The notes beneath the pieces were generated by a model. That model saw only the letters and a list, made by a program, of their open reading frames with translations. It searched no databases and was not told the DNA's origin. DNA of 64,000 nt from assembly GCF_041320275.1 (NCBI RefSeq), contig NZ_CP162023.1, forward strand, positions 1,488,001-1,552,000, written 5' to 3'. The position numbers and the translations under genes are program-made. Source of the DNA: Mumia sp. Pv4-285 (GTDB lineage Bacteria; Actinomycetota; Actinomycetes; Propionibacteriales; Nocardioidaceae). Shown one piece after another: positions 25,672 to 53,084 of this stretch. Within the stretch, counting starts at the first letter, position 1. Each line of letters starts with the position of its first letter.

Positions 25672-25720
25672 GTGACTCCGCTCACGTGCCTGTTACCCGA
25701 CGGTCACAAGGAACTAACCT
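25672..25720 (+). promoter_or_regulatory. meaA promoter with CRP-type box and TTAC palindrome
   Basis: GTGA-CTCCGC-TCAC (25672-25685) is a perfect CRP/GlxR-type core. GTTACCCGACGGTCAC (25692-25707) is a degenerate member of the 16-bp RTTACC-N6-GTAAY palindrome also found at ccr, hbd and the thiolase. TAACCT (25715-25720) is the -10, six bases before the meaA ATG, giving a leaderless start. The box centre is 36.5 bp from the -10. Confidence 0.65.
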
Positions 25721-25726
25721 GTGCGC

Positions 25727-27739
25727 ATGGCCGACTCGACTCACCGCGATCGCCCCTGGGTGATGCGCACCTACGCCGGGCACTCCTCGGCGTCTGACTC
25801 CAACGCGCTCTACCGTCGCAACCTCTCCAAGGGCCAGACCGGGCTCTCGGTGGCGTTCGATCTGCCGACCCAGACCGGCTACGACCCCGATCACCAGCTC
25901 AGCAAGGGCGAGGTGGGCAAGGTCGGTGTCCCGGTGCCGGACCTGGGCGAGATGCGTCGGCTCTTCGACGGCATCCCGCTGAAGACGATGAACACCTCCA
26001 TGACGATCAACGCGACCGCGATGTGGCTGCTCGCGATGTACCAGGTCGTCGCCGAGGAGCAGGCCCGGGACGCCGGTGAGGACCCGGGCGACTGGGTCGG
26101 TGAGCTCACCGGCACGACCCAGAACGACATCATCAAGGAGTACCTCTCGCGCGGGACGTACGTCTTCCCGCCCGAGGCGTCGATCCGGCTGACGACCGAC
26201 ATGATCGCCTACACGGTCGTCAACATGCCGAAGTGGAACCCGCTCAACATCTGCAGCTACCACCTCCAGGAGGCGGGCGCGACGCCGGTCCAGGAGCTCG
26301 CGTACGCCCTCTCGACCGCGATCACCGTCCTCGACGCCGTCCGCGATGCGGGCCAGGTCCCGCCGGAGGAGTTCGAGAAGGTCGTCGGGCGCATCTCGTT
26401 CTTCGTGAACGCCGGCGTCCGCTTCATCGAGGAGACGTGCAAGATGCGCGCCTTCGGCCGGCTGTGGGACGAGATCACCCGCGAACGCTACGGCGTGCAG
26501 GACCCGAAGATGCGTCGCTTCCGTTACGGCGTCCAGGTGAACTCGCTCGGCCTGACCGAGGCACAGCCTGAGAACAACGTGCAGCGGATCGTCCTCGAGA
26601 TGCTCGGCGTGAGCCTGAGCAAGAACGCCCGAGCCCGCGCCATCCAGCTTCCCGCCTGGAACGAGGCCCTCGGCCTGCCGCGGCCCTGGGATCAGCAGTG
26701 GTCGCTGCGGCTGCAGCAGGTCCTGGCGTTCGAGTCCGACCTCCTCGAGTACGGCGACATCTTCGACGGCAGCCACGTCATCGAGGCGAAGGTCGCCGAG
26801 CTCGTTGAAGGTGCCAAGGAGGAGATCGACCGGGTCCAGGCCATGGGCGGCGCGGTCGCCGCTGTCGAGTCCGGATACATGAAGCAGGCGCTGGTGGCGT
26901 CGCACGCGGCTCGTCGCGCGCAGATCGAGGCCGGTGAGCAGCTGGTCGTGGGCGTGAACGCGTACACGGAGTCCGAGGACTCGCCGCTGACCGCCGATCT
27001 CGACGGCGCGATCCAGACGGCGGACCCGCTGGCCGAGGCGAGCGCGATCGAGCGTGTCGTCGTCTGGCGCGGGCAGCGGAGCGAGGCCGAGGTCGCCGAG
27101 GCGCTCGACCGCCTCCGGGCGGACGCGAAGACGGATGCCAACCTGATGCAGGCGACGCTCGCCTGCGTCCGGGCGGGTGCGACGACGGGCGAGTGGGCAG
27201 GCGCGCTGCGCGAGGTCTTCGGCGAGTTCCGTGCGCCGACCGGTGTGACGGGAGTGGTCGGTGTGGCCGAAGCAGGAGCAGAGCTCGCCGGGGTGCGCGA
27301 GCGCGTCCGCCTGACGGGGGAGGAGCTCGGTGGCCGCCTGCGGCTGCTGGTGGGCAAGCCGGGGCTCGACGGCCACTCCAACGGCGCTGAGCAGATCGCA
27401 GTCCGTGCACGCGACGCGGGCTTCGAGGTCGTCTACCAGGGCATCCGTCTGACTCCGACCCAGATCGTCGCCGCCGCCGTGGACGAGGACGTCGACTGCA
27501 TCGGCCTCTCGATCCTGTCCGGCTCGCACATGGAGCTGGTGCCGGAGGTGCTGGCGCAGCTGCGTGCGGCCGGGATCGGAGACGTCCCGGTCGTCGTCGG
27601 CGGGATCATCCCCGAGTCGGATGCGCGGCGCCTTCTCGACGACGGCGTGGCGGCGGTCTACACGCCGAAGGACTACGGCATGACGCAGATCATGGACGAC
27701 ATCGTCAGCGTGATCCGGCGCGCGAACGACCTCGACTGA
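25727..27739 (+). CDS. meaA: Ethylmalonyl-CoA mutase (MeaA/Ecm type)
   Basis: 670-aa adenosylcobalamin-dependent mutase converting (2R)-ethylmalonyl-CoA to (2S)-methylsuccinyl-CoA. An N-terminal TIM-barrel substrate domain (about 1-510) is followed by a B12 domain whose DxHxxG motif reads DGHSNG, with His550 as axial ligand; LSILSGSH and VVVGGIIP follow. I call Ecm rather than methylmalonyl-CoA mutase because the protein is about 60 aa shorter than MutB and its B12 motif is GKPGLDGHSNGAEQIAVRAR, the MeaA form, rather than the MutB QDGHDRGAK form. ATG 25727 lies six bases after TAACCT. Neighbouring PduO and the distant MeaB and Ccr supply cofactor, repair and substrate. Confidence 0.93.
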   Translation: MADSTHRDRPWVMRTYAGHSSASDSNALYRRNLSKGQTGLSVAFDLPTQTGYDPDHQLSKGEVGKVGVPVPDLGEMRRLFDGIPLKTMNTSMTINATAMWLLAMYQVVAEEQARDAGEDPGDWVGELTGTTQNDIIKEYLSRGTYVFPPEASIRLTTDMIAYTVVNMPKWNPLNICSYHLQEAGATPVQELAYALSTAITVLDAVRDAGQVPPEEFEKVVGRISFFVNAGVRFIEETCKMRAFGRLWDEITRERYGVQDPKMRRFRYGVQVNSLGLTEAQPENNVQRIVLEMLGVSLSKNARARAIQLPAWNEALGLPRPWDQQWSLRLQQVLAFESDLLEYGDIFDGSHVIEAKVAELVEGAKEEIDRVQAMGGAVAAVESGYMKQALVASHAARRAQIEAGEQLVVGVNAYTESEDSPLTADLDGAIQTADPLAEASAIERVVVWRGQRSEAEVAEALDRLRADAKTDANLMQATLACVRAGATTGEWAGALREVFGEFRAPTGVTGVVGVAEAGAELAGVRERVRLTGEELGGRLRLLVGKPGLDGHSNGAEQIAVRARDAGFEVVYQGIRLTPTQIVAAAVDEDVDCIGLSILSGSHMELVPEVLAQLRAAGIGDVPVVVGGIIPESDARRLLDDGVAAVYTPKDYGMTQIMDDIVSVIRRANDLD

Positions 27740-27856
27740 CCGTCATCACGGCACCCGAAGGCTAGCCACTCCTTGGTGGTGGGCGCCCGTGCCGCCGACT
27801 AGCGTCGGGGGCACGGACATCGATGGCGGGTGAGTCCCGCAGCTAAGGAGTCAGCC

Positions 27857-28381
27857 ATGGCATCGGAGAAGTTTGCGACGCTGCTCAACGAGCAGGTGGG
27901 TCACGAGTTCGCCGCCCACCAGCAGTACGTCGCGATCGCGTGCTACTACGACGCCCTCACCATGCCGCGCATGGCGGCGCTGTTCTTCAACCAGGCGGTC
28001 GAGGAGCGCGACCACGCGATGATGATGGTGCAGTACCTCCTCGACGCGGGTGTCTCGGTCCGCATCCCAGGCGTCGCGGACCCGATCAACGACTTCAGTG
28101 ACGTTGTCGCCCCGGTCGAGCTGGCCGTGACGCAGGAGAAGCGGGTCACCGACCAGATCAACGAGCTGACCCGCGTCGCCCGCGACGCGAACGACTTCGC
28201 CTCGGACCAGTTCATGCAGTGGTTCATCAAGGAGCAGGTCGAGGAGGTCTCCAAGATGAGCGACCTCCTCGCCGTCGTCTCGCGCTCGTCTGAGGACCTC
28301 GAGGCGATCGAGCACTGGATCGCGCGCGAGGAGCGGGGCGAGGCGGCGGACCCGACGGCGCCTCCGATCGCCGGCGCCTGA
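27857..28381 (+). CDS. Ferritin
   Basis: 174-aa four-helix iron-storage protein. The ferroxidase residues Glu17 (GHEFAAHQQY), Glu50 and His53 (EERDH) are in place; there is no heme-ligand Met pattern, so it is BfrB/Ftn-like. ATG 27857 has AAGGAG seven bases upstream. A TAGCGT hexamer about 60 bp upstream is a possible -10. Only 15 bp separate it from a flavin oxidase that makes H2O2. Confidence 0.93.
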   Translation: MASEKFATLLNEQVGHEFAAHQQYVAIACYYDALTMPRMAALFFNQAVEERDHAMMMVQYLLDAGVSVRIPGVADPINDFSDVVAPVELAVTQEKRVTDQINELTRVARDANDFASDQFMQWFIKEQVEEVSKMSDLLAVVSRSSEDLEAIEHWIAREERGEAADPTAPPIAGA

Positions 28382-28396
28382 GCGAGAGCCGGGCCC

Positions 28397-29332
28397 GTGC
28401 GTGTGCTGGTCGTCGGCGCCGGCGTCACCGGTCTGACGTGCGCCGTGGTGGCCGCTGAGCGCGGCCACCACGTCGACGTGCTCGCGCGTGACCTCCCGCT
28501 CGAGACGACGTCGGCGGTCGCCGCCGCCTGGTGGTACCCGTACCTCGCCGAGCCTGTGGACCGCGTCCTCGGATGGTCTCGGAGGACGTACGAGGTGCTG
28601 GCCGACCTCTCCGACTCCGAGACAGGCGCGGGCGTGACGATGCGGCGCTCGGTCGAGCTGCTCGCCGAGCCGTCTCCGGAACCCTGGTGGTCAGGAGCGG
28701 TGCGCTCGCTCGAGGCGTTGCGGGAGGTCCCGGCCGGCTTCCACGCCGGGCGGGTGTTCGAGGCGCCGGTCGCCCACATGCCGACGTACCTCGACTACCT
28801 CGTACGCCGGCTGGCCTCCTCGGGCGGCACGCTGACGCGTATGGCACTTTCGACGCTCCCCGTCGGTGCCGACGTCGTCGTCAACGCCTCAGGACTCGGG
28901 AGCCGTCTGCTCGCCGGCGACGCGTCGACGACTCCTGTCCGCGGCCAGGTCCTGAGGCTCCCCGCGATCGCCGGGGTCGACGACGTGGTGCTCGCGGACG
29001 ACGCCGACACCACGACCTACGTGATCCCGCGGGGAGACGACGTGATCGTCGGCGGCACGAGCGAGTCCGGGGTGTGGGACCTTGCACCCCGCGACGCCGA
29101 CACGGCCGCCATCCTCACGCGTGCGATCCGCATCGTCCCCGAGCTGGAGGGTGCCCCGGTGCTCGGCGTCCGGGTCGGGCTCCGTCCGGCGAGGCCGATG
29201 GTCCGGCTCGAGCGGGAGGCGCGCACGGACGCGAGTCCCGTGGTCCACTGCTACGGCCACGGTGGTGCGGGGATCACGACGTCGTGGGGCTGCGCCGACG
29301 AGGTCGCCTCGCTGCTGGAGGCGCAAGGCTGA
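28397..29332 (+). CDS. D-amino-acid oxidase family FAD enzyme
   Basis: 311-aa flavoprotein. The FAD Rossmann motif is GAGVTGLT (Gly7-Gly12 glycines), AAAWWYPY is the conserved DAAO active-site segment, and the C-terminal HGGAGITTSWGCADEVA is the family signature. It would oxidise D-amino acids to keto acids, ammonia and H2O2. GTG 28397 is 15 bases after the ferritin stop, so co-transcription is likely. A pair of competing hairpins follows. Confidence 0.92.
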   Translation: MRVLVVGAGVTGLTCAVVAAERGHHVDVLARDLPLETTSAVAAAWWYPYLAEPVDRVLGWSRRTYEVLADLSDSETGAGVTMRRSVELLAEPSPEPWWSGAVRSLEALREVPAGFHAGRVFEAPVAHMPTYLDYLVRRLASSGGTLTRMALSTLPVGADVVVNASGLGSRLLAGDASTTPVRGQVLRLPAIAGVDDVVLADDADTTTYVIPRGDDVIVGGTSESGVWDLAPRDADTAAILTRAIRIVPELEGAPVLGVRVGLRPARPMVRLEREARTDASPVVHCYGHGGAGITTSWGCADEVASLLEAQG

Positions 29333-29347
29333 CCGAGGTCACTCGGT

Positions 29348-29382
29348 GGTGAGCTCCGTGACGGGCTCACCTCGCGGTGAGC
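29348..29382. terminator. Alternating hairpins between convergent genes
   Basis: Three copies of one 7-mer alternate in orientation: GGTGAGC (29348-29354), GCTCACC (29365-29371), GGTGAGC (29376-29382). The middle copy can pair with either neighbour, giving two mutually exclusive hairpins. Lying between the ends of convergent genes, it is probably a bidirectional terminator; there is no T-run. Confidence 0.5.
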
Positions 29383-29954
29383 TCCTTGACCGTGTCGTCG
29401 GTGGTCTCGATCGCCGGGGGAGTCGTCTCGGGCTCCTGGTCGACGATGGGAGCGGCCACGGGGACAGACGCGTCGGCGGTGACCGTCGGAGCCGTGCGCG
29501 CGTACGCGACCGCGCGCGAGGCGCGTGCCGACAGGCTCGGAGCGGCACTCTCGACCCGGGTCCACTCCTGCCGGATCTCCGCGAGGCGGTCGTCGGTGAT
29601 GCGCTCGGACAGGATCGCCTGCTCGAGCTCTCGGCGGAGCGTGCCGTACTCGGCGGCGGCGCGCTGGTGCGCGGCGATGACGTCAGCGGGATCGGCGACC
29701 GTCTGAAGGAGGGCGACAGCGGCAGCGAAGCCGGCGAGCACGCCGGCTGCGACCGTGAGCCACCTGCCGTCGTCGACCGAGGTGGCGGCGAACGCGGACG
29801 CGGCGGAGAGCGCGGCGAGGATGACGGTCGCCGCGCCGAGCGCCCGAGAACGACGGCGTCGGACGCGGGCGGCGAGCTGGTGGGCTTCGTGGCCGACGCT
29901 GATGGCGTCGAGCCACTGGAGAACGGTCGGCTCGTTGCCGCGATAGGTCCACAC
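29367..29954 (-). CDS. SLATT-domain-like two-TM protein
   Basis: 195 aa. Order: a short N-terminal segment, a basic stretch (AARVRRRRSRA), two membrane helices (about 40-58 and 65-84), a helical segment with AAHQRAAAEYGTLRRELEQA, and a Pro/Thr-rich tail. The arrangement and the AxxHxxAAxxYxxLRRE pattern fit SLATT domains, which are predicted pore-forming effectors coupled to SMODS/SLOG nucleotide-signalling modules. No cyclase or SLOG gene is adjacent. GTG 29954 is preceded by TAGCAT with eight bases between; GTG 29975 is an alternative. Assignment from pattern memory only. Confidence 0.6.
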   Translation of the reverse strand: MWTYRGNEPTVLQWLDAISVGHEAHQLAARVRRRRSRALGAATVILAALSAASAFAATSVDDGRWLTVAAGVLAGFAAAVALLQTVADPADVIAAHQRAAAEYGTLRRELEQAILSERITDDRLAEIRQEWTRVESAAPSLSARASRAVAYARTAPTVTADASVPVAAPIVDQEPETTPPAIETTDDTVKELTAR

Positions 29955-30092
29955 GGAGTCGGATGCTAGCGACACCAGCGGCGGAGGGGACGCGATTTGC
30001 GAGGTCGTCCCATGCTGCGGTCAGAGTGGTCGCGGATTCGCTGGGAGCGTACGCCCTTGCGAAGGTGGGTGAATGCGCGTAAGCCTAATTAC

Positions 30093-30617
30093 ATGATTAC
30101 AAACGATGTGGACGAGATCAGAGGATGGTTCACCGGTCGTCTCCCCGAGGGCCTGTTCGACGCGCTTGAGAGCGTGACGGTCGATCGCGAGGAGATCGTC
30201 GTCATCGGTTGTATCGCGCCGCCGAGCCTTGCGGACGGAGTGTCCGAGGCCGAGCGACGCGGCGCGGTGCAGGGTCGCGTGCAGGAGTTCCGCGAGCGGA
30301 CGCGAGAGACTCGGATGGCGGTCGCTCGCGAAGCTCAGCACCGGTTCGGGCGCACGGTGTCGTGGGGCGTCGAGTGTGACGGCGAGCAGGCCCTGTTCAC
30401 GCATCTCGCGTCGCCGGTGATGACCCGCCTGCGCCAGCCCGAGCGTCAGGTCCTCGACACCCTGATCGCGGCAGGCGTCGCACGCAGCCGCAGCGACGCC
30501 TTGGCATGGTGCGTGCGCCTGGTGCAGCGCCACGAGGACACGTGGCTGGACGAGCTGCGCGAGTCCTTGGAGAACGTCCGGCGGGTCCGCGAGCAGGGGC
30601 CCGGTTCCGGAGGCTGA
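30093..30617 (+). CDS. Hypothetical protein with ribbon-helix-helix-like C-terminus
   Basis: 174 aa. The N-terminal half (RGWFTGRLPEGLFDALESVTVDREEIVVIG) resembles no domain I can name. The second half has RLRQPERQVLDTLIAAGVARSRSDALAWCVRLV, spaced like a ribbon-helix-helix or short HTH DNA-binding unit. ATG 30093 lies in an unusually AT-rich patch (TAATTACATGATTA) with no Shine-Dalgarno sequence; the in-frame upstream region is Arg/Trp-rich and unlikely to be translated. It is divergent from the SLATT-like gene and convergent with the macrodomain gene. Function unknown. Confidence 0.65.
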   Translation: MITNDVDEIRGWFTGRLPEGLFDALESVTVDREEIVVIGCIAPPSLADGVSEAERRGAVQGRVQEFRERTRETRMAVAREAQHRFGRTVSWGVECDGEQALFTHLASPVMTRLRQPERQVLDTLIAAGVARSRSDALAWCVRLVQRHEDTWLDELRESLENVRRVREQGPGSGG

Positions 30618-30639
30618 GCGGGCGCCGTGCGCCTCAGCC
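30612..30639. terminator. Hairpin between convergent genes
   Basis: GGCTGAG (30612-30618) pairs with CTCAGCC (30633-30639). It covers the stop codons of both convergent genes, so it probably ends both transcripts. Confidence 0.5.
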
Positions 30640-31143
30640 GACCGCTGCGCGGAGCAGCCGGTCGGGGGCTTCTCCGTACGCGACCATGAGGGCGCGCTCG
30701 ACCGCGCTGTCGGCCGCGTGCAACGTCGTGACGGCGACGGCCACCGCCTCCTCGAGGGGCCACCCGTACGCTCCGGCCGAGATCAGGGGAAACGCCACCA
30801 CGCGCGCTTCGAGCTCGTCGGCGACAGCGAGGCTGCGGGTGTACGCCGAGCGCAGCAGATCAGTCCGGTCCTCGTGCGGCGACCAGACCGGGCCGACCGC
30901 GTGGATGACCCAGCGGGCAGGGAGGCGACCACCCGAGGTGGCGACGGCGTCGCCGGTCGGGAGGCCCTCGGGGTGACTCGTCGCGCGCAGCTCGCGGCAC
31001 GCGTCGAGGATCTCTGGACCTCCGGCCCGGTGGATGGCGCCGTCGACGCCTCCTCCGCCGAGCAACGAGCTGTTGGCGGCATTGACGATCGCGTCGGCCC
31101 GGACCGTCGTGATGTCGCCCTGGACGACCTCGATGCGGAGCAT
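30634..31143 (-). CDS. Macrodomain protein (O-acetyl-ADP-ribose deacetylase type)
   Basis: 169-aa single macrodomain. ADP-ribose-binding motifs: VVQGDITTVRADAIVNAAN with Asn-Asn, LLGGGGVDGAIHRAGG and the phosphate loop PLISAGAYGWPLEEA. It hydrolyses O-acetyl-ADP-ribose or removes ADP-ribose from targets. ATG 31143 has AGGAAG upstream. Nine bases after the TetR stop on the same strand, it is likely in one operon with that regulator. Confidence 0.93.
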   Translation of the reverse strand: MLRIEVVQGDITTVRADAIVNAANSSLLGGGGVDGAIHRAGGPEILDACRELRATSHPEGLPTGDAVATSGGRLPARWVIHAVGPVWSPHEDRTDLLRSAYTRSLAVADELEARVVAFPLISAGAYGWPLEEAVAVAVTTLHAADSAVERALMVAYGEAPDRLLRAAVG

Positions 31144-31152
31144 GCTTCCTGC

Positions 31153-31749
31153 TTACCTGATCGCGCCCCGGAGGGCCACGTCGACGACGGCGTCGGCGAA
31201 GTCGACCTCGAGCGGGCCCGGGCCGAGAAGCCACCGACCGACCAGCGGCCCGAGCAGGCACTCCACGAGCACGTCCAGATCGAGGTCGTCGCGGAGCATG
31301 CCGGCGTCCTGGGAGACCGCGAGCCGGCGCCGCACCGCCGACCTCTGCGGTGTCAGCAGCCGGTCACGGTACTGCTGGGCCACGCCGTCGTCCTGAAGGA
31401 TCTCGACGGTCACGGCGCGCAGGAAGGCGCCGGTCGAGGGTGACGCCATCTCGTCCGCCGACGCGCGGAGGAAGGCCGACAGGTCCGCTTGCAAGTCGCC
31501 GCTGTCAGGGAGGGACGCGTCCGCCCCGCCGGAACGCTCGAGGAGGCTGTCGAAGACGATCGCGCCCCGCGACGGCCACCAACGGTAGATCGTCTGCTTG
31601 CCGACGCCGGCGCGCGCCGCGATCGCCTCGATGGTCAGCCTGGGGTAGGGGACTTCTTCGATCAGCGCTGCAGTGGCGTTCAGCACCGCCGTTCGAGCGC
31701 GCTCGCTGCGGCGTCGCGGTGGCGTGGAATCAGGCTCGCGTTCGGGCAC
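31153..31749 (-). CDS. TetR/AcrR family transcriptional regulator
   Basis: 198 aa. HTH at about residues 17-62 (LTIEAIAARAGVGKQTIYRWW); the C-terminal ligand domain resembles the TetR_C-type found in regulators of dehydrogenases. GTG 31749 lies six bases after TACACT (minus strand, 31756-31761), so it is leaderless. It is divergent from an SDR oxidoreductase, with a perfect inverted repeat between them as the probable shared operator. The macrodomain gene follows in the same operon. Confidence 0.9.
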   Translation of the reverse strand: MPEREPDSTPPRRRSERARTAVLNATAALIEEVPYPRLTIEAIAARAGVGKQTIYRWWPSRGAIVFDSLLERSGGADASLPDSGDLQADLSAFLRASADEMASPSTGAFLRAVTVEILQDDGVAQQYRDRLLTPQRSAVRRRLAVSQDAGMLRDDLDLDVLVECLLGPLVGRWLLGPGPLEVDFADAVVDVALRGAIR

Positions 31750-32678: not shown

Positions 32679-33356
32679 TCAGAACAGCCGCAGGCTCGGG
32701 TCGTCGATCCCACGGAGGGCGTCGTAGTCGACCAGACGGCACTCGATCCCGCGGTCGGCGGCGAGCGTACGGGCCTGCGGCTTGATCTCCTGTGCGGCGA
32801 AGATGCCGCGGACCGGGGCGAGCAGCGGGTCGCGGTTCATCAGCTCGAGGTAGCGGGTCAGCTGCTCGACTCCGTCGATCTCGCCGCGCCGCTTGACCTC
32901 GACCGCGACCGAGGCTCCTCTGGCGTCTCGGCAGAGCAGGTCGACGGGGCCGATCGCCGTCATGTACTCCCGCCGGACGAGCGACATCCCGTCGCCGAGG
33001 CTGGTGGGGTGCTCGGCGAGCAGCTCCTGCAGGTGCTTCTCGACGCCGTCCTTCTGGAGCCCGGGGTCGACCCCGAGGTCGTGGCTGGAGTCGTGGAGGA
33101 GCTCCTCGATGAGGATCCGCAGGGTGTCGTCGGTCTTGGTCGCCGACACGGTCCACTCGACGGTGCCCTCGTCGGTCACGCCTTCGCGCATCACGGCGGG
33201 CGGGCTCATCCAGTTGAGCGGCTTGTATGCGCGGTCGTCGGAGTGGATCGACACGGAGCCGTCCGACTTGACGAGGATGAGGCGGGTGGCCATCGGCAGA
33301 TGCGCGGACAGCCGTCCGGCGTAGTCGACCTGGCAACGAGCGATGACGAGGCGCAC
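32679..33356 (-). CDS. nucS: Mismatch-specific endonuclease NucS/EndoMS
   Basis: 225 aa. The N-terminal dimerisation/DNA-binding domain is followed by a RecB-like nuclease with catalytic Asp139 (GPVDLLC), Glu153 and Lys155 (VEVKRR), and Gln165. NucS cuts both strands at mismatches and replaces MutSL in most actinobacteria; here it is presumably the main mismatch-repair enzyme. GTG 33356 lies six bases after TAGCCT on the minus strand, a leaderless start inside the 19-bp gap after the lipoprotein gene. Confidence 0.95.
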
Positions 33357-33974: not shown

Positions 33975-34037
33975 GTGACGTGCGTCACGCCGCTGGCAGT
34001 GATGCGCGGGGCTACCGAGTAGTAACCTGCCGGTAAC
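33975..34037 (+). promoter_or_regulatory. hbd promoter: CRP-type box plus two overlapping TTAC palindromes
   Basis: GTGACG-TG-CGTCAC (33975-33988) is both a perfect palindrome and a perfect GTGA-N6-TCAC box. GCTACCGAGTAGTAAC (34011-34026) and GTAACCTGCCGGTAAC (34022-34037) are two overlapping 16-bp palindromes with centres 11 bp apart, one helical turn. TAACCT (34023-34028) is the likely -10; the first palindrome centre is 4.5 bp upstream of it. Confidence 0.7.
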
Positions 34038-34066
34038 TTACGTCCCCCGAGAAACAGGAGACTTCC

Positions 34067-35848
34067 GTGGCGCGCGAGATCAAGACAGTCGGAGTCGTCG
34101 GCGTCGGCACCATGGGTGCCGGCATCGCGGAGGTGCTGGCCCGCAACGGCATCGCCGTCCTCGCGGTGGATCGCGACGACGCCGCGCTCGAGCACGGCCG
34201 CTCGACGATCGAGCACTCGACCCAGCGCGCCGCGGAGCGCGGCAAGCTGGACGACGCCGACCGTGGCGCGCTGCTCGACCGCATCTCGTACAGCACCGAC
34301 CTCACGAGCCTCGCCGAGGCAGACCTCGTCGTCGAGGCGGTGGTGGAGCAGCTCGACGTCAAGATCGACGTGTTCCAGCAGCTCGACAAGATCGTCCGCG
34401 ACGACGCCGTCCTCGCCTCGAACACGTCGGCACTGTCCGTCACCGAGATCGCCTCCGCCACGCGTCTGCCGAGCCGCGTCGTCGGTCTCCACTTCTTCAA
34501 CCCCGCGCCGGTCCAGGACTTCGTCGAGGTCGTCCGCACGGTCGTCTCCGCGCCGGACGTCGTCGACGACGCGGTCGCGCTCGCCCAGCGGCTCGGCAAG
34601 AGCCCGGTGACCGTTGGCGACAAGGCGGGATTCATCGCGAACGCCCTCCTGTTCGCCTACCTCAACCACGCTGCCTCGATGTACGAGGCCCAGTACGCCA
34701 CCCGCGAGGACATCGACGCCGCCATGCGCCTGGGCTGCGGCTACCCGATGGGACCGCTCGCGCTGCTCGACCTGATCGGCCTCGACACGGCGTACGAGAT
34801 CCTCGAGACGATGTACCTGCAGGACCGCAAGCGGGTCCACGCCCCGTCGCCGATCCTCAAGCAGATGGTCACCGCGGGGCTCCTCGGGAGGAAGTCGGGC
34901 CGCGGTTTCTACACGTACGCCGAGGAGTACTCCTCGACCGTCGTCGACGATGCGGTGACGCCGTCCTCGGAAACCGCGCCGCAGCTGCGCCGTGAGATCG
35001 GCCTGGTCGGGGTCGTCGGCACGGGCACCATGGCGTCGGGCATCGTGGAGGTCTTCGCGAAGGCCGGGTACGACGTGGTCTACGTCGGCCGCACGCCGGA
35101 CAAGCTCGACGGCGTCCGCGCCGCCATCGCGAAGTCCCTCGACAAGGCGATCTCGCGCGGGCGCTCGACCGAGGAGAAGAAGGCCGAGATCCTCGGCCGC
35201 CTCACCGGGAGCACCGAGCGCGAGGCGCTCGCCCCGGTCGACATCGTCGTCGAGGCGATCGCGGAGGACCTCGACGTCAAGGTCGAGCTGTTCAAGGACC
35301 TCGACCGCATCTGCAAGCCCGGCGCCATCCTCGCCACCACGACGTCGTCCCTCCCGGTGATCGCCTGCGCCGCGGTGACCGACCGCCCGCAGGACGTCAT
35401 CGGGATGCACTTCTTCAATCCCGCCCCGGTGATGAAGCTCGTCGAGGTCGTCTCGACGGTGGCCACGGCCGACGACGTGACGGAGACGGTCCAGGCGCTC
35501 TGCGCGAACGTCGGCAAGCACGCCGTCGCGTGCGGCGACCGCGCCGGCTTCATCGTCAACGCGCTGCTCTTCCCGTACCTCAACGACGCCGTCAAGATGC
35601 TCGAGGCGCACTACGCGACCGCCGACGACATCGACGTTGCCATGAAGCTCGGGTGCCGGCTGCCGATGGGCCCGTTCGAGCTGCTCGACGTGGTCGGCAA
35701 CGACGTGTCGCTCGCCATCGAGCAGACGCTCTTCCGCGAGTTCCGCGAGCCCGCGTGGGCCCCGGCGCCGCTCCTGGAGCACCTCGTCACGGCGGGCTAC
35801 CTCGGACGCAAGACGGGGCGCGGGTTCCGCGACTACGCGCGCCGCTGA
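34067..35848 (+). CDS. Double 3-hydroxybutyryl-CoA dehydrogenase (two fused Hbd units)
   Basis: 593 aa made of two complete homologous dehydrogenases (about 1-285 and 303-593). Unit 1 has GVGTMGAGIAE and catalytic LHFFNPAPVQDFVE; unit 2 has GTGTMASGIVE and MHFFNPAPVMKLVE. In unit 2 the third glycine of GxGxxG is Ala. Each has its own C-terminal dimerisation domain ending in GRKSGRGF or GRKTGRGF. It would interconvert acetoacetyl-CoA and 3-hydroxybutyryl-CoA, feeding crotonyl-CoA to Ccr. GTG 34067 has AGGAG nine bases upstream. It shares promoter motifs with meaA, ccr and thiolase. Confidence 0.93.
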   Translation: MAREIKTVGVVGVGTMGAGIAEVLARNGIAVLAVDRDDAALEHGRSTIEHSTQRAAERGKLDDADRGALLDRISYSTDLTSLAEADLVVEAVVEQLDVKIDVFQQLDKIVRDDAVLASNTSALSVTEIASATRLPSRVVGLHFFNPAPVQDFVEVVRTVVSAPDVVDDAVALAQRLGKSPVTVGDKAGFIANALLFAYLNHAASMYEAQYATREDIDAAMRLGCGYPMGPLALLDLIGLDTAYEILETMYLQDRKRVHAPSPILKQMVTAGLLGRKSGRGFYTYAEEYSSTVVDDAVTPSSETAPQLRREIGLVGVVGTGTMASGIVEVFAKAGYDVVYVGRTPDKLDGVRAAIAKSLDKAISRGRSTEEKKAEILGRLTGSTEREALAPVDIVVEAIAEDLDVKVELFKDLDRICKPGAILATTTSSLPVIACAAVTDRPQDVIGMHFFNPAPVMKLVEVVSTVATADDVTETVQALCANVGKHAVACGDRAGFIVNALLFPYLNDAVKMLEAHYATADDIDVAMKLGCRLPMGPFELLDVVGNDVSLAIEQTLFREFREPAWAPAPLLEHLVTAGYLGRKTGRGFRDYARR

Positions 35849-47346: not shown

Positions 47347-47348
47347 GG

Positions 47349-48656: not shown

Positions 48657-48675
48657 GGAATGCCTTCGGTCGTAG

Positions 48676-48723
48676 TTCGGGGGGAGGTCGCTCGGCAAAG
48701 CGTAGCGCGACCGACCCCCCGAA
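48676..48723 (-). terminator. Long hairpin terminator of ccr
   Basis: Outer arms TTCGGGGGG (48676-48684) and CCCCCCGAA (48715-48723), inner arms GGTCGC (48686-48691) and GCGACC (48707-48712), 15 pairs in total. It lies just after the ccr stop and before the coiled-coil gene on the same strand, separating the two transcripts. Confidence 0.75.
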
Positions 48724-48731
48724 CTCACCAC

Positions 48732-50069
48732 TCAGATGCCGCGAAAACGGTTGATCTCCGTCAGGTGCTTCGCACGCTTCTCGTCGTTGCGCACGCCGAG
48801 GCCCTCCTCGGGCGAGAGGCAGAGCACACCGACCTTGCCCTGGTGGGCGTTCCGGTGCACGTCGAGGGCGGCCTGGCCGGTCTCGTCGAGGCTGTAGACC
48901 TTGGAGACGGTCGGGTGGACCATGCCCTTGTCGATGAGGCGGTTGGCCTCCCACGCCTCGCGGTAGTTCGCGAAGTGCGAGCTCAGGATGTTCTTGAGGT
49001 TCATCCAGAGGTAGCGGTTGTCGTACTGGTGCATGTAACCCGACGTCGACGCGCAGGTGACGATGGTGCCGCCCTTGCGTGCGACGTAGACGCTGGCGCC
49101 GAACGTCTCGCGACCCGGGTGCTCGAACACGATGTCGGGATCGTCGCCACCGGTGAGCTCGCGGATCTTGGAGCCGAGGCGCTTCCACTCGCGCGGATCC
49201 TGCTCGTGCTCGTCCTTCCAGAACTTGTAGCCCTCGGCCGAGCGGTCGATGACCAGCTCGGCTCCCATCGAGCGTACGATCTCGGCCTTCTCGGGCGAGG
49301 AGACGACGCACACCGGCGTCGCGCCTCCGTTGAGCGCGAACTGCGTGGCGTACGACCCGAGGCCGCCCGAGGCTCCCCAGATCAGGACGGTGTCGCCCTG
49401 CTTCATCGCCGCGCCGTTCTTGGAGACCAGCTGGCGGTACGCGGTGGAGTTCACCAGGCCGGGGCTGGCGGCCTCCTCCCACGAGAGGTGGTCGGGCTTG
49501 GGCATCAGCTGGTTCGCCTTGACGATCGCCAGCTCCGCGAGGCCACCGAAGTTGGTCTCGAAGCCCCAGATGCGCTGCTCGGGGTCCATCATCGTGTCGT
49601 TGTGGCCGTCGGGGCTCTCGAGCTCGACCGACAGGCAGTGGGCGACGACCTCCTGCCCTGCCTTCCAGGCGTTGACACCGGGACCGGTGCGAAGGACGAC
49701 GCCGGCGAGGTCGGAGCCGACCACGTGGTAGGGGAGGTCGTGGCGCTTCGTGTACTCGGAGAGGCGCCCGTACCGCTCGAGGAACCCGAAGGTCGAGACC
49801 GGCTCGAAGATCGAGGTCCAGACGGTGTTGTAGTTGATCGAGCTCGCCATCACCGCGACCAGGGCCTCACCCGGCGCCAGCTCTGGGACTGGTACGTCGT
49901 CGAGGTGCAGGCTCTTGCGAGGGTCCTTGTCGCGGGTGGCCAGCCCCTCGAACATGTCGGTCTCGTCCTTGTGGACGGTGACACCCCGGTAGGTCTCCGG
50001 GATGGCGATGTTCGCGAAGTCCTCGCTCGAGGTGTCTCCCGCCATGATCGCGTCGAGAATGTGCTGCAC
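48732..50069 (-). CDS. ccr: Crotonyl-CoA carboxylase/reductase
   Basis: 445-aa medium-chain dehydrogenase/reductase that reductively carboxylates crotonyl-CoA with NADPH and CO2 to (2S)-ethylmalonyl-CoA. The groES-like domain carries YHVVGSDLAGVVLRTG, the nucleotide site is WGASGGLGSYATQFAL, and FEHPGRETFGASVY, YMHQYDNRYLWMNLK and SSHFANYREA are family hallmarks including the CO2-pocket region. GTG 50069 has GGAGGA five bases upstream. Expressed from a promoter with a CRP-like box and the TTAC palindrome. Product goes to the epimerase and MeaA. Confidence 0.95.
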   Translation of the reverse strand: MQHILDAIMAGDTSSEDFANIAIPETYRGVTVHKDETDMFEGLATRDKDPRKSLHLDDVPVPELAPGEALVAVMASSINYNTVWTSIFEPVSTFGFLERYGRLSEYTKRHDLPYHVVGSDLAGVVLRTGPGVNAWKAGQEVVAHCLSVELESPDGHNDTMMDPEQRIWGFETNFGGLAELAIVKANQLMPKPDHLSWEEAASPGLVNSTAYRQLVSKNGAAMKQGDTVLIWGASGGLGSYATQFALNGGATPVCVVSSPEKAEIVRSMGAELVIDRSAEGYKFWKDEHEQDPREWKRLGSKIRELTGGDDPDIVFEHPGRETFGASVYVARKGGTIVTCASTSGYMHQYDNRYLWMNLKNILSSHFANYREAWEANRLIDKGMVHPTVSKVYSLDETGQAALDVHRNAHQGKVGVLCLSPEEGLGVRNDEKRAKHLTEINRFRGI

Positions 50070-50109
50070 GTCGTCCTCCAGAATTGAGCGGCGCTCTTGC
50101 GTTACGCGG

Positions 50110-50158
50110 ATATTACTCATCGGTAATGGCCGTGGTGTACGAGTGTGACCGATGTCGC
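50110..50158 (-). promoter_or_regulatory. ccr promoter with near-CRP box and TTAC palindrome
   Basis: Read on the minus strand: GCGA-CATCGG-TCAC (50158-50145, one mismatch to GTGA-N6-TCAC), then ATTACCGATGAGTAAT (50127-50112), the best-formed copy of the palindrome, then TAATAT (50115-50110) as -10 overlapping its downstream end. The palindrome centre is 4.5 bp and the box centre 36.5 bp from the first -10 base. Confidence 0.7.
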
Positions 50159-50202
50159 CCCGCGGGGTGCGTCCGGAGCCGTGTGCCCGCATGATTCGTG
50201 AC

Positions 50203-50250
50203 CGGCGGGTATCCGCCGACAGTACCGCCCAGGTTCCCCGCCGGTAGCGT
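50203..50250 (+). promoter_or_regulatory. Hairpin and candidate promoter of pxpABC
   Basis: CGGCGG-GTAT-CCGCCG (50203-50218) is a perfect 6-bp hairpin; TAGCGT (50245-50250) is a possible -10 about 34 bp before pxpA. The hairpin may insulate the divergent ccr promoter or serve as an operator. Confidence 0.35.
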
Positions 50251-50283
50251 GGGTGGCGCGCGGAGCGAGGGGCCAGGAGAGAC

Positions 50284-51042
50284 GTGAACCAGATCGATCT
50301 CAACAGCGACGTCGGTGAGTCGTTCGGACGCTGGGAGCTGGGAGACGACGCTGCGATCCTCCGGCTCGTCACCAGCGCCAACGTCGCGTGCGGGTTCCAT
50401 GCAGGAGATCCGCGGACGCTGCGGCGTACGTGCGAGCTGGCCGCCGCGGGCGCGGTCACCGTGGGTGCGCAGGTCGGCTACCGCGACCTCGCGGGCTTCG
50501 GACGCCGGTTCATCGACGTGGACCCGGTCGAGCTGGCCGACGACGTGGTCTACCAGGTGGGTGGGCTCGACGGCGTCGCGCGGGTCGCCGGGACCGGCGT
50601 CCGCTACGTCAAGCCGCACGGCGCTCTCTACCACGCCACCGTGCACCACGACGGGCAGGCGCGAGCCGTCGCCGAGGCCGTCCGGGCGTACGACCCGTCG
50701 CTCCCGTTGCTCGGTCTGCCGGGCTCGCGGCTGCTGGCGTGGGGCGAGCGCCTGGGGTTGCGAACGGTCCGGGAGGCGTTCGCGGACCGCGCCTACACGC
50801 GGTCGGGGGAGCTGGTGCCGCGTACGCAGTCGGGCAGCGTCCTGCACGACGCCGCGCACGTCGCGGAGCGCGTTCTCCGGATGGTCACCGAAGGAGCGGT
50901 GGAGGCGATCGACGGGACCGACGTCCGCATCACGGCAGAGTCCGTCTGTGTGCACGGCGACACTCCGGGTGCCGTCACGATGGCCCGACGCGTCCGTGAG
51001 GTGCTCGAGGCCGCCGGGGTGACGCTCGGGGCGTTCGTGTGA
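50284..51042 (+). CDS. pxpA: 5-oxoprolinase subunit A
   Basis: 252 aa, LamB/YcsF family. [11 protein letters not shown] and [10 protein letters not shown] form the conserved N-terminal metal/active site; KPHGALYH follows. With PxpB and PxpC it hydrolyses 5-oxoproline to glutamate with ATP. AGGAGAG precedes GTG 50284. First of three overlapping genes. Confidence 0.95.
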
Positions 51043-51674
51043 GGGTCCGGCCCTACGGCGACCGCGCGCTGATCGTGGACCTGGACGACGCCGGGTCGGT
51101 GGTGACGTGGGCCGAGGCGGTGCGAGCGGCGTCGCTGGGGGGTGTGGCGGACGTCGTCCCGGCGGCGCGGACGGTCCTCGTCGTGTCCGAGGACGGGGCG
51201 GACGTGGCCGCACTCGCGACGTCTCTCCGTGGCATCGAGCCCGCGACGGCTGGACCGGGCGCGCCGACGGCGGACGCCGACGAGATCGTGGTGCGCGTCC
51301 GTTACGACGGTCCCGACCTCGCCGAGGTCGCCGACCTCACCGGTCTGGGCGTCCGCGGGGTGGTCGCTGCGCACACGGGCCGGCCGTGGCGGGTCGGCTT
51401 CGGGGGGTTCGCGCCGGGATTCGCCTACCTCGTCGGAGGCGACCCGCGCCTGGAGGTGCCGCGTCGCCCTCAGGCTCGTACGACCGTGCCGGCGGGTGCG
51501 GTCGGGCTCGCGGGGGAGTACTCGGGGATCTACCCGCGCACCTCACCGGGCGGCTGGCAGCTGATCGGGACGACCGACGCGGTGCTCTGGGACCTCGAAC
51601 GCGACCCGCCCGCGCTGCTGCGACCGGGCGCCGTGGTCCGGTTCGTGGAGGAGCAGAGCTTGGAGGAAGGGTGA
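51039..51674 (+). CDS. pxpB: 5-oxoprolinase subunit B (KipI family)
   Basis: 211 aa, AHS1/KipI domain. [12 protein letters not shown] at the N-terminus, GFAPGFAYL and [11 protein letters not shown] near the end. The start overlaps the pxpA stop by four bases, and the stop overlaps pxpC, so all three subunits are coupled. Confidence 0.94.
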
Positions 51675-52525
51675 CGGCGCTCGAGGTGGTGGGCAGTGGC
51701 CCGCTCGCGCTCGTGCAGGACGGCGGCCGGCCGGGGTGGTCGGCGATCGGGGTGGGCCGGTCCGGCGCGGCCGACCGGGCGTCGTACCGGCTGGCGAACC
51801 GACTGCTCGCCAACCCCGAGGGTGCCGCCGCGATCGAGGTGCTGCTCGGCGGGTTCGAGGCGGTCGCGCGCGACGGCGACCTGTGGGTCGCCGTCACCGG
51901 CGCACCCGCGTCCCTGACCGTCGGGTCGCGCGCCGCGGACCCGTATGCCGCGGTCGCGCTGCGCCAGGGCGAGCGGCTGCGACTGGGGACTCCGTCAGCG
52001 GGGCTGCGGTCGTACGTCGCCGTCAGGGGCGGTGTCGACGTGCCGCCGGTGCTCGGCTCGCGGAGCCGAGACGTGCTCGCCGAGATCGGTCCGGCGCCGC
52101 TCGCCGCGGGCGACCGGCTCCCCGTCGGGCCGACACCCACCGCCTACCCGCACGTCGACGCGGTGCCCGCGACGGCCTACGACGACGAGGTCCTGCTGCG
52201 GGTGGTGAGAGGCCCCCGCGACGACTGGGTCGCCGACGCGGACGCGCTCGTGTCGACGACCTGGCACGCCTCCGCGAACAGCGACCGCGTCGGGATGCGG
52301 CTCGACGGTGCGGCGATGTCCCTCGCGGACCCTCGCCGTCAGCTCCCGTCCGAGGGGGCGTGCCGCGGTGCGATCCAGGTGCCGCCGAGCGGGGAGCCGG
52401 TCGTGCTGCTCGCCGACCATCCCGTCACGGGCGGCTATCCGGTGGTCGGCGTCGTCGTGGACGCCGACGTCGACCGCGCGGCACAGGTACGCCCCGGCCA
52501 GCCGCTGCGCCTGCGGTGGGCGTGA
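51671..52525 (+). CDS. pxpC: 5-oxoprolinase subunit C (KipA family)
   Basis: 284 aa, AHS2/KipA domain. VQDGGRPGWSAIGVGRSGAADRAS and AVRGGVDVPPVLGSRS are the conserved parts; the C-terminal VLLADHPVTGGYPVVG is typical. GTG 51671 overlaps the pxpB stop. Convergent with the epimerase gene. Confidence 0.94.
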   Translation: MTALEVVGSGPLALVQDGGRPGWSAIGVGRSGAADRASYRLANRLLANPEGAAAIEVLLGGFEAVARDGDLWVAVTGAPASLTVGSRAADPYAAVALRQGERLRLGTPSAGLRSYVAVRGGVDVPPVLGSRSRDVLAEIGPAPLAAGDRLPVGPTPTAYPHVDAVPATAYDDEVLLRVVRGPRDDWVADADALVSTTWHASANSDRVGMRLDGAAMSLADPRRQLPSEGACRGAIQVPPSGEPVVLLADHPVTGGYPVVGVVVDADVDRAAQVRPGQPLRLRWA

Positions 52526-52547
52526 GCGCCGGGACGGGGCGTACGGG

Positions 52548-52985
52548 TCAGTGCGTGGTGTCGGCGGCGGGCTCGACGAGCTCCACCAGCACCCCGCCGG
52601 CGTCCTTGGGGTGCACGAAGTTGACCCGGCTGTCGGACGTGCCGCGCTTCGGCTGGTCGTACAGGAGACGCATGCCGCGGCTGCGGAGCACGTCACTCAC
52701 AGCGTCGAGGTCGCTCACGCGGTAGGCGAGCTGCTGGATGCCCGGGCCGTTGCGGGTGAGGAACTTCGCGATCGTCGACTGGTCCGAGAGCGGTGCGAGG
52801 AGCTGGATGCGCTGGTCGGTCTCGCCGACGGCGAGCATCGCCTCGCGGACCCCCTGCTCCTCGTTGATCTCCTCGTGCACCGAGTGCAGGCCGAAGACGT
52901 TGGCGTAGAACTCGAGCGCCTCGTCGAGGTCGGGCACCGCGATGCCGACGTGGTCGATGGCGATGAGCAGATGATCGGGAACCAT
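52548..52985 (-). CDS. mce: Methylmalonyl-CoA/ethylmalonyl-CoA epimerase
   Basis: 145-aa VOC-superfamily metalloenzyme. His12 (IDHVGIAV), Gln of GIQQLAYRV and a C-terminal Glu (VLVELVE) are the likely metal ligands. It interconverts the 2R and 2S forms of methylmalonyl- and ethylmalonyl-CoA, placing Ccr product in the form MeaA accepts. ATG 52985 lies seven bases after TAGGGT (minus strand): leaderless; GTG 52994 falls inside that hexamer. Divergent from the thiolase. Confidence 0.93.
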   Translation of the reverse strand: MVPDHLLIAIDHVGIAVPDLDEALEFYANVFGLHSVHEEINEEQGVREAMLAVGETDQRIQLLAPLSDQSTIAKFLTRNGPGIQQLAYRVSDLDAVSDVLRSRGMRLLYDQPKRGTSDSRVNFVHPKDAGGVLVELVEPAADTTH

Positions 52986-53036
52986 GCGAGGCACCCTAGG
53001 ACAGATCAGCGCCCGCGCGGCTCCCCGGGCGCCCCT

Positions 53037-53084
53037 GTGACCTTCCTCACCGCACGCGACGACGATGTTACGGGCGAGTATCGT
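53037..53084 (+). promoter_or_regulatory. Thiolase promoter with CRP-type box and TTAC palindrome
   Basis: GTGA-CCTTCC-TCAC (53037-53050) is a perfect box core. GTTACGGGCGAGTATC (53067-53082) is the palindrome, with TATCGT (53079-53084) as -10 overlapping its right half. Centres are 35.5 and 4.5 bp from the first -10 base. The divergent epimerase promoter is 40 bp away and could share the box. Confidence 0.65.

Follow-up and report, generated by a model that had tools for sequence, protein, structure and literature searches.

A palindrome and a CRP/GlxR-type box in four promoters of the ethylmalonyl-CoA route in Mumia sp. Pv4-285, and their probable place in a wider lipid-catabolism regulon

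In Escherichia coli the fad regulon is controlled by the repressor FadR together with the activator CRP-cAMP, and CRP sites classically occupy class I or class II places. Regulators of ethylmalonyl-CoA or propionyl-CoA genes are CcrR of Methylobacterium and short-chain acyl-CoA regulators of the PccR/RamB/PrpR type, the motif core of the latter being TTTGCAAA-like, and the response regulators MtrA and GlnR use head-to-tail GTNAC repeats. In the excerpts of published work drawn on here, FdmR of Mycobacterium marinum belongs to the TetR family and regulates genes for fatty-acid catabolism, fadE5 among them (PMC9262360, PMC10501769, PMC9301340), FasR (Rv3208) is a TetR protein that senses long-chain acyl-CoA and activates fas-acpS (PMC7382501), and the regulatory signals that govern the catabolism of triacylglycerol and fatty acids in Streptomyces and its kin had not been described as of 2017 (PMC5539140). 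Outside mycobacteria, descriptions of regulators of fatty-acid catabolism are few.

We analysed a stretch of 64,000 nt of the Mumia sp. Pv4-285 genome (NZ_CP162023.1, positions 1,488,001-1,552,000, forward strand), referred to below as the window, in which four dispersed promoters share two sequence elements.

Two elements in four promoters of the window

The promoters precede, or in the case of the epimerase adjoin, the following genes:

25727..27739, + strand, meaA-type acyl-CoA mutase (NCBIfam acid_CoA_mut_N and _C; ORF listed from GTG 25721)
25715..25720, + strand, candidate -10 of meaA, TAACCT, read from the sequence
34067..35848, + strand, hbd, double-domain 3-hydroxybutyryl-CoA dehydrogenase (NCBIfam, two stretches)
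48732..50069, - strand, ccr, crotonyl-CoA carboxylase/reductase (TIGR01751, 601.9 bits against a cut-off of 378.55)
52548..52985, - strand, methylmalonyl-CoA epimerase (TIGR03081; start by gene finder)
53153..54343, + strand, acetyl-CoA acetyltransferase (thiolase; NCBIfam)
54382..55338, + strand, meaB, 3' of the thiolase gene (TIGR00750; start by gene finder)

The epimerase gene is divergent from the thiolase gene, and the palindrome-bearing intergenic site is common to both. The meaA mRNA is probably leaderless, since ATG 25727 lies only 6 nt past the candidate -10; this ATG is conserved in a Mumia relative (L031), and the GTG at 25721 is not.

An earlier note on this DNA had placed a GTGA-N6-TCAC box at each promoter, perfect in three cases and with one mismatch at ccr, and re-reading of the sequence returned exactly these positions:

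25672..25685, no strand, CRP/GlxR-type box upstream of meaA, exact, GTGACTCCGCTCAC
33975..33988, no strand, CRP/GlxR-type box upstream of hbd, exact, GTGACGTGCGTCAC
53037..53050, no strand, CRP/GlxR-type box upstream of thiolase, exact, GTGACCTTCCTCAC
50145..50158, no strand, CRP-type box of ccr, one mismatch, GTGACCGATGTCGC

These are matches to the core of the dyad TGTGA-N6-TCACA. The three exact copies are the only ones in the 64 kb, where about 0.5 is expected from base composition; at one mismatch or fewer the pattern occurs at 33 places in the window. The note had further described a 16-bp palindrome at five positions (25692, 34011, 34022, 50112 and 53067), all of which stand, and had written it as RTTACC-N6-GTAAY, which is 17 bp long and has to be corrected to RTTACC-N4-GGTAAY (16 bp):

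25692..25707, no strand, meaA palindrome, GTTACCCGACGGTCAC, 15.6 bits, one mismatch
34011..34026, no strand, first hbd palindrome, 19.8 bits, two mismatches; overlaps -10 TAACCT 34023-34028
34022..34037, no strand, second hbd palindrome, 16.5 bits, one mismatch; overlaps a second -10-like TAACTT 34034-34039
50112..50127, no strand, ccr palindrome, 21.4 bits, one mismatch; overlaps -10 TAATAT, minus strand, 50115-50110
53067..53082, no strand, thiolase palindrome, 14.0 bits, three mismatches; overlaps -10 TATCGT 53079-53084
50198..50213, no strand, candidate extra palindrome-like site in the ccr/pxpA gap, 13.0 bits
50233..50248, no strand, candidate extra palindrome-like site in the ccr/pxpA gap, 11.2 bits

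No copy in the window is perfect, and the thiolase copy is weak by consensus alone, since the window contains 23 matches at three mismatches or fewer. The bit scores come from a matrix of 56 sites of relatives, which is independent only for hbd and thiolase because its training set included the orthologous Mumia meaA and ccr sites and no hbd or thiolase site. With this matrix all seven matches of at least 11 bits in the window are those listed above, within these promoter regions, and the remaining matches of at least 8 bits are all coding and score 10.0 bits or lower. The sites in the four promoters are not due to chance. At 16 bp the site is too short for genome-wide E-values from a covariance model, of which the best was 2.13. 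TAGCGT on the + strand, together with the candidate site at 50233..50248, is a possible pxpA promoter.

The distances given previously were re-derived by hand and agree: box centres lie 36.5 (meaA), 41.5 (hbd), 36.5 (ccr) and 35.5 bp (thiolase) from the first base of the -10, and palindrome centres lie 15.5 bp from it in meaA and 4.5 bp in hbd, ccr and thiolase, a repetition that is partly built into the motif as the right half-site includes the first -10 bases. Among 132 palindrome promoters, TANNNT hexamers (-10s predicted from sequence) start 4.5 bp (48 cases) or 15.5-17.5 bp (25 cases) downstream of the palindrome centre. Whereas the palindrome shifts by one turn, the CRP box stays at a steady distance from the -10; this distance is 40.5-43.5 bp in 22 and 35.5-36.5 bp in 7 of 31 scored promoters, four of which are the window's own. 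The two distance groups are half a turn apart, which is odd for a helix-phased activator and counts against the explanation we prefer below.

Occurrence in relatives and targets of the palindrome

The meaA surroundings of 80 relatives amount to 1.57 Mb, of which 8.3% is non-coding, and there all 60 matches to the palindrome at one mismatch or fewer are non-coding, so that it is not as frequent inside genes as in promoters, the outcome that would have spoken against the earlier proposal; five permuted control palindromes jointly gave a single such match. At two mismatches or fewer, the 107 non-coding matches in these loci belong to meaA (63), hbd (23), ccr (11), thiolase/epimerase (4) and other or no genes (6). 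The palindrome is found at this stringency upstream of meaA in 60 of 78 relatives and of ccr in all six genomes examined of the genus. A second matrix, trained on meaA promoters alone, matched 11/14 ccr, 5/9 thiolase and 29/57 hbd promoters in Nocardioidaceae (hbd being assigned by synteny with NucS) versus 5/268 control promoters, one of the five being itself an hbd promoter. A site of at least 13 bits is present at thiolase in 5/9 relatives and absent from hbd in 28/57 and from meaA in 18/78.

Exact palindromes number 76 in 100 Nocardioidaceae genomes versus 2 for the reversed pattern. At one mismatch or fewer the counts are 21 versus 0 in three genomes and 64 versus 7 in nine, the control pattern matching in four of these nine and three times in one of them (G013). 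In other families, 20 genomes with ccr have a site with two mismatches or fewer within 160 bp upstream of the gene in only four cases. One further exact site lies just past 160 bp before ccr of another family (L248).

Seventy exact sites were read, of which 66 are non-coding. Their targets include a DUF4442 thioesterase (14), etfB (10), etfD (5), fatty acyl-CoA reductase (5), lipase (4) and FadA (4); thioesterase, etfB and etfD together account for 29 sites versus 9 for meaA, ccr and hbd. Exact copies precede relatives of etfB, etfD and fadA in other families of the class, and in two genomes relatives of etfD are preceded by two whole palindromes 25 bp apart. The motif is enriched in families f5 and f19, neither of which has a genome among the ccr matches listed. 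Single matches were seen before genes for GAPDH and pyruvate kinase.

In Mumia sp. Pv4-285 itself, the sole exact palindrome precedes etfB (etfBA), and further targets are etfD, a HpcH/HpaI lyase and acyl-CoA dehydrogenase pair, an AMP-ligase, a lipase, an aldehyde dehydrogenase, a thioesterase, and acyl-CoA dehydrogenase and thiolase relatives. Three of the eight sites with one mismatch or fewer outside the window either fall within a gene or have no lipid gene next to them (C1:157066, 3178260, 3325727), and the 71 sites at two mismatches or fewer compare with 36 for the control, which thus matches about half. The sites, their conservation, their position in promoters, the content of the regulon and the presence of a CRP are established by computation.

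This CRP is the strongest of 11 HTH_Crp_2 matches in the genome, three of which exceed the cut-off (60.9 bits at C1:340645, L318, and 29.2 and 27.6 bits for the other two). Its best structural matches are chains 3d0s (E 1.3e-78), which we take to be the CRP of Mycobacterium tuberculosis, and 3r6s (E 3.3e-77), presumably GlxR. CRP-like boxes accompany the palindrome in 40/134 promoters versus 18/428 controls, counts that are not independent, since they include genomes related to one another and take each divergent gap from both sides, and a CRP box of 8/10 is absent from 94/134 palindrome promoters. The earlier proposal that two factors control the ethylmalonyl-CoA route is supported by one strong CRP and by the enrichment of boxes beside palindromes; its term "pathway-specific" is too narrow in view of the sites at acyl-CoA oxidation, ETF, EtfD, lipase and thioesterase genes.

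The putative regulator and competing readings

We consider it likely that the palindrome is the operator of one dimeric repressor of acyl-CoA catabolism, layered on activation by CRP, and that the ethylmalonyl-CoA genes are part of a wider lipid-catabolism regulon. In this view a single dimeric protein that binds DNA and governs the breakdown of fatty acids and acyl-CoAs would occupy RTTACC-N4-GGTAAY at the -10, or a helical turn further upstream, and block RNA polymerase until released by an acyl-CoA or a related signal, and the genome's CRP would bind the GTGA-N6-TCAC box and activate according to carbon status. We infer this binding, acyl-CoA as the signal, the assignment of all sites to one regulator and its TetR identity; that it represses rather than activates is the most likely sense, as a protein bound at this position would obstruct RNA polymerase. 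As members of the wider regulon, meaA, hbd, ccr and thiolase-meaB would be switched on, and acetyl-CoA assimilation with them, together with the beta-oxidation that makes acetyl-CoA. With slightly more doubt than belief, we also suggest that one ancient, undescribed regulator of beta-oxidation reads this operator across much of Actinomycetes, from Mumia to a Mycobacteriaceae-like family, controlling the EtfBA/EtfD electron outlet, the thioesterase, thiolases and lipases, and that ethylmalonyl-CoA genes were recruited in lineages using that route, with CRP as a second input.

An activator or dual regulator is unlikely: the palindrome's two positions with respect to the -10 differ by one turn, the more distant, in the spacer, being that of meaA in Nocardioides and Mumia, and TetR-type activators such as FasR exist (excerpts of PMC7382501), but in the commoner class, the 48 promoters with the hexamer at 4.5 bp, the right half-site extends into the -10, which would be covered by a bound activator. 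That same overlap, and the presence of T at position six of the -10 in 48 of the 125 sites whose right half contains TA, would suit an extended promoter element, such as the -10 region of an alternative sigma factor; against this highly improbable reading speak the second class with the palindrome one turn upstream of a separate -10, the paired whole copies before etfD relatives and the conservation of both halves, although the sites behind the last point had been chosen for their resemblance to the palindrome.

A reading of the sites as direct repeats, GTNAC-N6-GTNAC, for a response regulator of the OmpR family (MtrA or GlnR) is also very unlikely. GTTAC-N6-GTAAC fits both a repeat and a dyad, and such a site is found near glnR here and in a relative of the genus. 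Across 57 sites the third bases are complementary (T 0.89 versus A 0.91) and the rarer letters mirror too (G 0.09 versus C 0.09), which favours a dyad, a symmetry partly built in because the sites were picked by the palindrome at two mismatches or fewer; this choice admitted repeats with one mismatch, yet GTAAC occurs on the left in 1/57 and GTTAC on the right in 0/57. The targets, moreover, concern lipid catabolism and not cell wall or nitrogen; targets in acyl-CoA metabolism, like the dyad symmetry and the overlap with the core promoter, agree with the operator of a TetR-type acyl-CoA repressor. The narrower reading of the earlier note, a regulator dedicated to the ethylmalonyl-CoA pathway, accounts for the site at all four pathway promoters of the window and for the near absence of other targets within 10 kb of meaA in relatives; it is hardly credible against the exact copy before etfB, the 29 to 9 sites among exact copies and the enrichment in f5 and f19.

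The regulator of the palindrome had been called not evident in the window, and this holds, as neither TetR gene there (587-1231, 31153-31686) has a palindrome of at least 11 bits nearby. A copy before a regulator gene, which had been named as expected support, was not found in convincing form by the matrix scan around TetR genes of the genome: 2-3 kb around all 60 contained a single palindrome of at least 12 bits (C1:1430372, 12.8 bits), over the start codon of a neighbouring gene. This does not exclude a TetR protein, as autoregulation is common and not obligatory. Several candidates were rejected. In many Nocardioides the hbd intergenic region is shared with the gene at 32679-33356, which looked like the regulator but is NucS; the TetR genes near sites (L139/L297) are weak candidates; and the TetR gene that three Aeromicrobium loci carry near meaA (in L067 the two are immediate divergent neighbours, in L040 and L075 roughly 1.7 kb separate them, and L157 and L179 probably duplicate L067 and L040) shares at most 42% local identity with the TetR genes of Mumia sp. 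Pv4-285 at 50 loci. A FasR homologue is present, but the published 25-mer, as given in excerpts of PMC7382501, differs from the palindrome. The Rv0158 motif and the MftR operator, in the excerpts consulted, do not match it, a text search of the MadR paper returned no match for the motif words, and in the listed entries and excerpts of the non-subscription papers searched, the palindrome was not found as a lipid-gene motif.

Comparison with known systems

One 16-bp sequence predicts jointly switched lipid-catabolism genes of a large bacterial group and so defines a testable regulon, for whose regulator the etfB or hbd palindrome is a ready-made bait; it would tie an acetyl-CoA assimilation route to the beta-oxidation feeding it. 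The TTTGCAAA-like core of RamB, PrpR and PccR sites is absent from the RTTACC-N4-GGTAAY consensus. FasR has a close homologue here (L268; best PDB match 6o6p, E 1.2e-53), and its crystal 25-mer, in the excerpts of PMC7382501, lacks RTTACC-N4-GGTAAY. FdmR, according to the excerpts cited above, regulates fatty-acid catabolism genes, as proposed for the palindrome's regulator, and may or may not be its reader. The CRP resembles GlxR and mycobacterial CRP, the HTH stretch QLVGASRETVNKALADF being identical in the two alignments shown, whereas the boxes are mostly centred 35.5-43.5 bp upstream of the -10 and not at the classical class I or class II places. The fad system of E. coli differs in that FadR belongs to the GntR family and has another operator, in contrast to RTTACC-N4-GGTAAY and the ethylmalonyl-CoA assimilation route here; the likeness lies in acyl-CoA catabolism being placed under a dedicated regulator and CRP, with acetyl-CoA assimilation tied in.

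Palindrome and box in the window

Two motifs were claimed to link the meaA, hbd, ccr and thiolase-meaB promoters, a palindrome (25692, 34011, 34022, 50112 and 53067) and a CRP/GlxR-type box (25672, 33975, 50145 and 53037). All nine sites and every distance quoted for them proved correct when the sequence was re-read and the distances re-derived by hand, the gene names were borne out as well, and the observation is stronger than the earlier note knew. The palindrome is real, and only its spelling has to be changed: RTTACC-N4-GGTAAY, 16 bp long, fits better and keeps a mirrored C/G pair missing from the original string. GTGA-N6-TCAC has three exact copies in the 64-kb window, all of them upstream of a named gene; at up to one mismatch there are 33 places. 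The palindromes deviate from the consensus by one (meaA), two and one (hbd), one (ccr) and three positions (thiolase), and because 23 places in the window match at up to three mismatches, the thiolase copy could not be trusted on consensus mismatches alone. This was settled with a symmetrised weight matrix built from 56 sites of relatives. Because orthologous meaA and ccr sites from the genus were in its training set, whereas hbd and thiolase sites were absent from it, the matrix gives an independent test for hbd and thiolase only. The five palindromes score 21.4, 19.8, 16.5, 15.6 and 14.0 bits. Two further sites (50198-50248) lie in the gap separating ccr from the divergently oriented pxpABC-like genes:

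50198: palindrome-like site in the ccr/pxpA gap, 13.0 bits by the 56-site matrix
50233: palindrome-like site in the ccr/pxpA gap, 11.2 bits by the 56-site matrix

The remaining three window matches of at least 8 bits are all coding and reach at most 10.0 bits. Since the second gap site extends into a -10-like TAGCGT, pxpA may be a member of the regulon.

The host genome comprises 4.65 Mb, and its meaA is 97% identical to that of Mumia xiangluensis. Between meaA and hbd, a SLATT_4-domain protein (29367-29954) and a Macro-domain protein (30634-31143) are encoded close together (29367-31143); they might form a small insert for defence or nucleotide signalling. The hbd gene (34067-35848) encodes a 593-aa fusion of two hydroxybutyryl-CoA dehydrogenase domains; in several Nocardioides relatives the product is about 389 aa long.

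Conservation and extent of the probable regulon

Of 80 named relatives from which meaA loci with flanks of up to 10 kb were taken, 78 were used, and 60 of these carry the palindrome at up to two mismatches within 230 bp of meaA, compared with 12 of 1496 stretches drawn at random from these loci; as relatives share ancestry, such fractions are not probabilities. Over these 1.57 Mb, of which 8.3% is non-coding, all five exact and all 55 one-mismatch matches are non-coding, as are 47 of the two-mismatch matches (12 coding), and five permuted palindromes combined gave one match at up to one mismatch. Of the 107 non-coding matches, 63 lie upstream of meaA, 23 upstream of hbd, 11 upstream of ccr and 4 upstream of a thiolase or epimerase gene, the other six having a different neighbour or none. 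In a stricter test, a matrix trained on meaA promoters only found sites of at least 13 bits at ccr in 11 of 14 relatives, at thiolase in 5 of 9 and at hbd in 29 of 57, against 5 of 268 control genes with an intergenic gap of at least 120 bp; another hbd is among those five. At 14 bits it gave 104 non-coding and 4 coding matches, the window counted in; ten column-permuted matrices gave 0-9 and 0-32, respectively. No site of at least 13 bits was found in 18 of 78 meaA and 28 of 57 hbd promoters, which are real misses, and in 20 genomes from other families only four ccr genes have a site at up to two mismatches within 160 bp.

The 100 Nocardioidaceae genomes contain 76 exact copies of the motif (reversed-pattern control, 2), and 66 of 70 sites read are non-coding. 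Recurring neighbours of these 70 are genes for a DUF4442 thioesterase (14), etfB (10), etfD, an epimerase-fold protein and a fatty acyl-CoA reductase (5 each), lipase and FadA-type thiolase (4 each), and meaA, ccr and hbd (3 each); neighbours seen once, off the lipid theme or ambiguous by Pfam, include PorA-like, AI-2E-type and luciferase-like genes. At up to one mismatch, counts were 21 versus 0 in three genomes and 64 versus 7 in nine. Among 58 one-mismatch contexts, which partly overlap the exact set, 6 are coding and 26 lie beside a relative of a listed target; the remainder bring in GMC oxidoreductases, a wax-ester synthase, ABC transporter genes and a large acyl-CoA dehydrogenase, plus isolated matches (GAPDH, pyruvate kinase, others) that may be due to chance.

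Across the class, 126 of 296 genomes contain an exact copy. Enrichment over the control is seen in family f5, which looks like Mycobacteriaceae (47 versus 1, 27 genomes), f19 (25 versus 1, 20 genomes), f34 (11 versus 0, 6 genomes) and f18 (13 versus 1); in f23 (6 versus 10) and f32 (1 versus 3) the exact motif is at control level. We read 51 sites (30 plus 20 loci and L248), of which 48 are non-coding and 27 adjoin relatives of the following genes: etfB (8), acyl-CoA dehydrogenase (6; 26-31% identity), fadA (5), etfD (3), DUF4442 (2), ccr (2, including a 62-aa fragment) and aldehyde dehydrogenase (1). The likeness of f5 to Mycobacteriaceae is judged in part from an EtfD relative with at least 837 aa. 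In three f17 loci (L396, L397, L399) the exact palindrome was scored as coding; it is located near the 3' terminus of a long predicted gene, with frames of 1494, 1494 and 1389 bases. At L247 (579-2971) it follows two genes resembling ferredoxin reductase and desaturase by eye; a TetR gene divergent from this pair shows 69% identity over 141 aa to the own-genome TetR at C1:2755908.

In the host genome itself, 71 sites at up to two mismatches compare with 36 for the reversed pattern, and roughly half may therefore be due to chance. We read 22 contexts outside the window, drawn from 50 of the 71 matches: eight at up to one mismatch and 14 two-mismatch sites picked by eye. Among the matches listed, five of the eight adjoin lipid genes, namely the sole exact copy (122 bp upstream of etfB) and single sites at genes for an EtfD-like iron-sulphur protein with a CCG domain, a secretory lipase, a DUF4442 thioesterase and an aldehyde dehydrogenase; the other three are off-theme, C1:157066 being intragenic and C1:3178260 and C1:3325727 having no lipid neighbour. 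Of the 14 two-mismatch sites, one lies upstream of an AMP-forming ligase gene and another upstream of an HpcH/HpaI lyase gene with an acyl-CoA dehydrogenase gene behind it; several more are coding or without lipid neighbour. A second scan including the last base of the -10 gave 46 matches versus 9. Three of eight more stretches from it carry a site of at least 18 bits, and two of these sites precede acyl-CoA dehydrogenase and thiolase relatives (BLAST). A palindrome-like site between glnR and its neighbour, present here and in a genus relative (L143 3233, L355 2499), may instead be a box for GlnR or MtrA. The earlier note's two-factor outline stands, while its restriction to the ethylmalonyl-CoA route is too narrow, with sites also at etfB, etfD, thioesterase and lipase genes; the regulon very probably comprises lipid and acyl-CoA catabolism.

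Promoter anatomy

In 132 distinct promoters, a TANNNT hexamer starts 4.5 bp from the palindrome centre in 48 cases and 15.5-17.5 bp from it in 25, with 10 in the left half-site and 13 elsewhere. The TA of the 4.5-bp class belongs to the motif itself; the T at the sixth place, found in 48 of 125, does not. Of 134 promoters, 40 have a CRP-like box (at least 8/10) no more than 70 bp upstream of the palindrome, versus 18 of 428 controls. Box and -10 occur together in 31 promoters, including the four of the window. The distance from box centre to -10 measures 40.5-43.5 bp in 22 of these, 35.5-36.5 bp in 7 and has other values in 2, the first two groups differing by half a turn. This spacing is the same whichever class the palindrome falls in, so the box keeps its distance to the -10 and the palindrome shifts by one turn. 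Judged from the layout, both palindrome places would hinder RNA polymerase.

The meaA mRNA is probably leaderless, because an ATG (25727) lies six bases after the -10 and the listed GTG start is not kept in L031, from a Mumia relative. Seven Nocardioides-type meaA promoters (L066, L073, L077, L084, L088, L090, L093) carry an altered CRP-like box, TGTG[CG]A[CG]NACC[CA]CACA, at about the same distance to the -10, and a TGTCGGA-N-type box lies upstream of meaA in L078, L092 and L103. Before etfD relatives of two f5 genomes, two full palindromes are exactly 25 bp apart (L413 1717-1757, L415 2425-2465), an arrangement that would suggest cooperative binding.

Candidate regulators

Most likely, the palindrome is the operator of a lipid-catabolism regulator, combined with CRP activation. 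That one factor reads it we hold with high confidence, and that the boxes bind CRP is likely. The genome has a single strong CRP match (C1:340645, 225 aa, 60.9 bits, HTH_Crp_2) and two more barely above the cut-off. The PDB chains nearest to its product are of the mycobacterial CRP and GlxR type, and the stretch QLVGASRETVNKALADF is identical in both alignments.

Repression by the palindrome's regulator is a fairly likely mode of action, probably as an acyl-CoA-responsive repressor, and we lean slightly towards the TetR family. Sixty TetR genes are encoded, one of them in the window; a matrix scan of 2-3 kb around all 60 returned just one site of at least 12 bits (12.8 bits, over the start codon of the neighbouring gene). 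The gene beside hbd (32679-33356) is ruled out as the regulator, being NucS. A FasR homologue is encoded in the genome; the 25-mer given for FasR in PMC7382501 is without the RTTACC-N4-GGTAAY motif. The best functional match in the literature, as described in citing papers, is FdmR of M. marinum.
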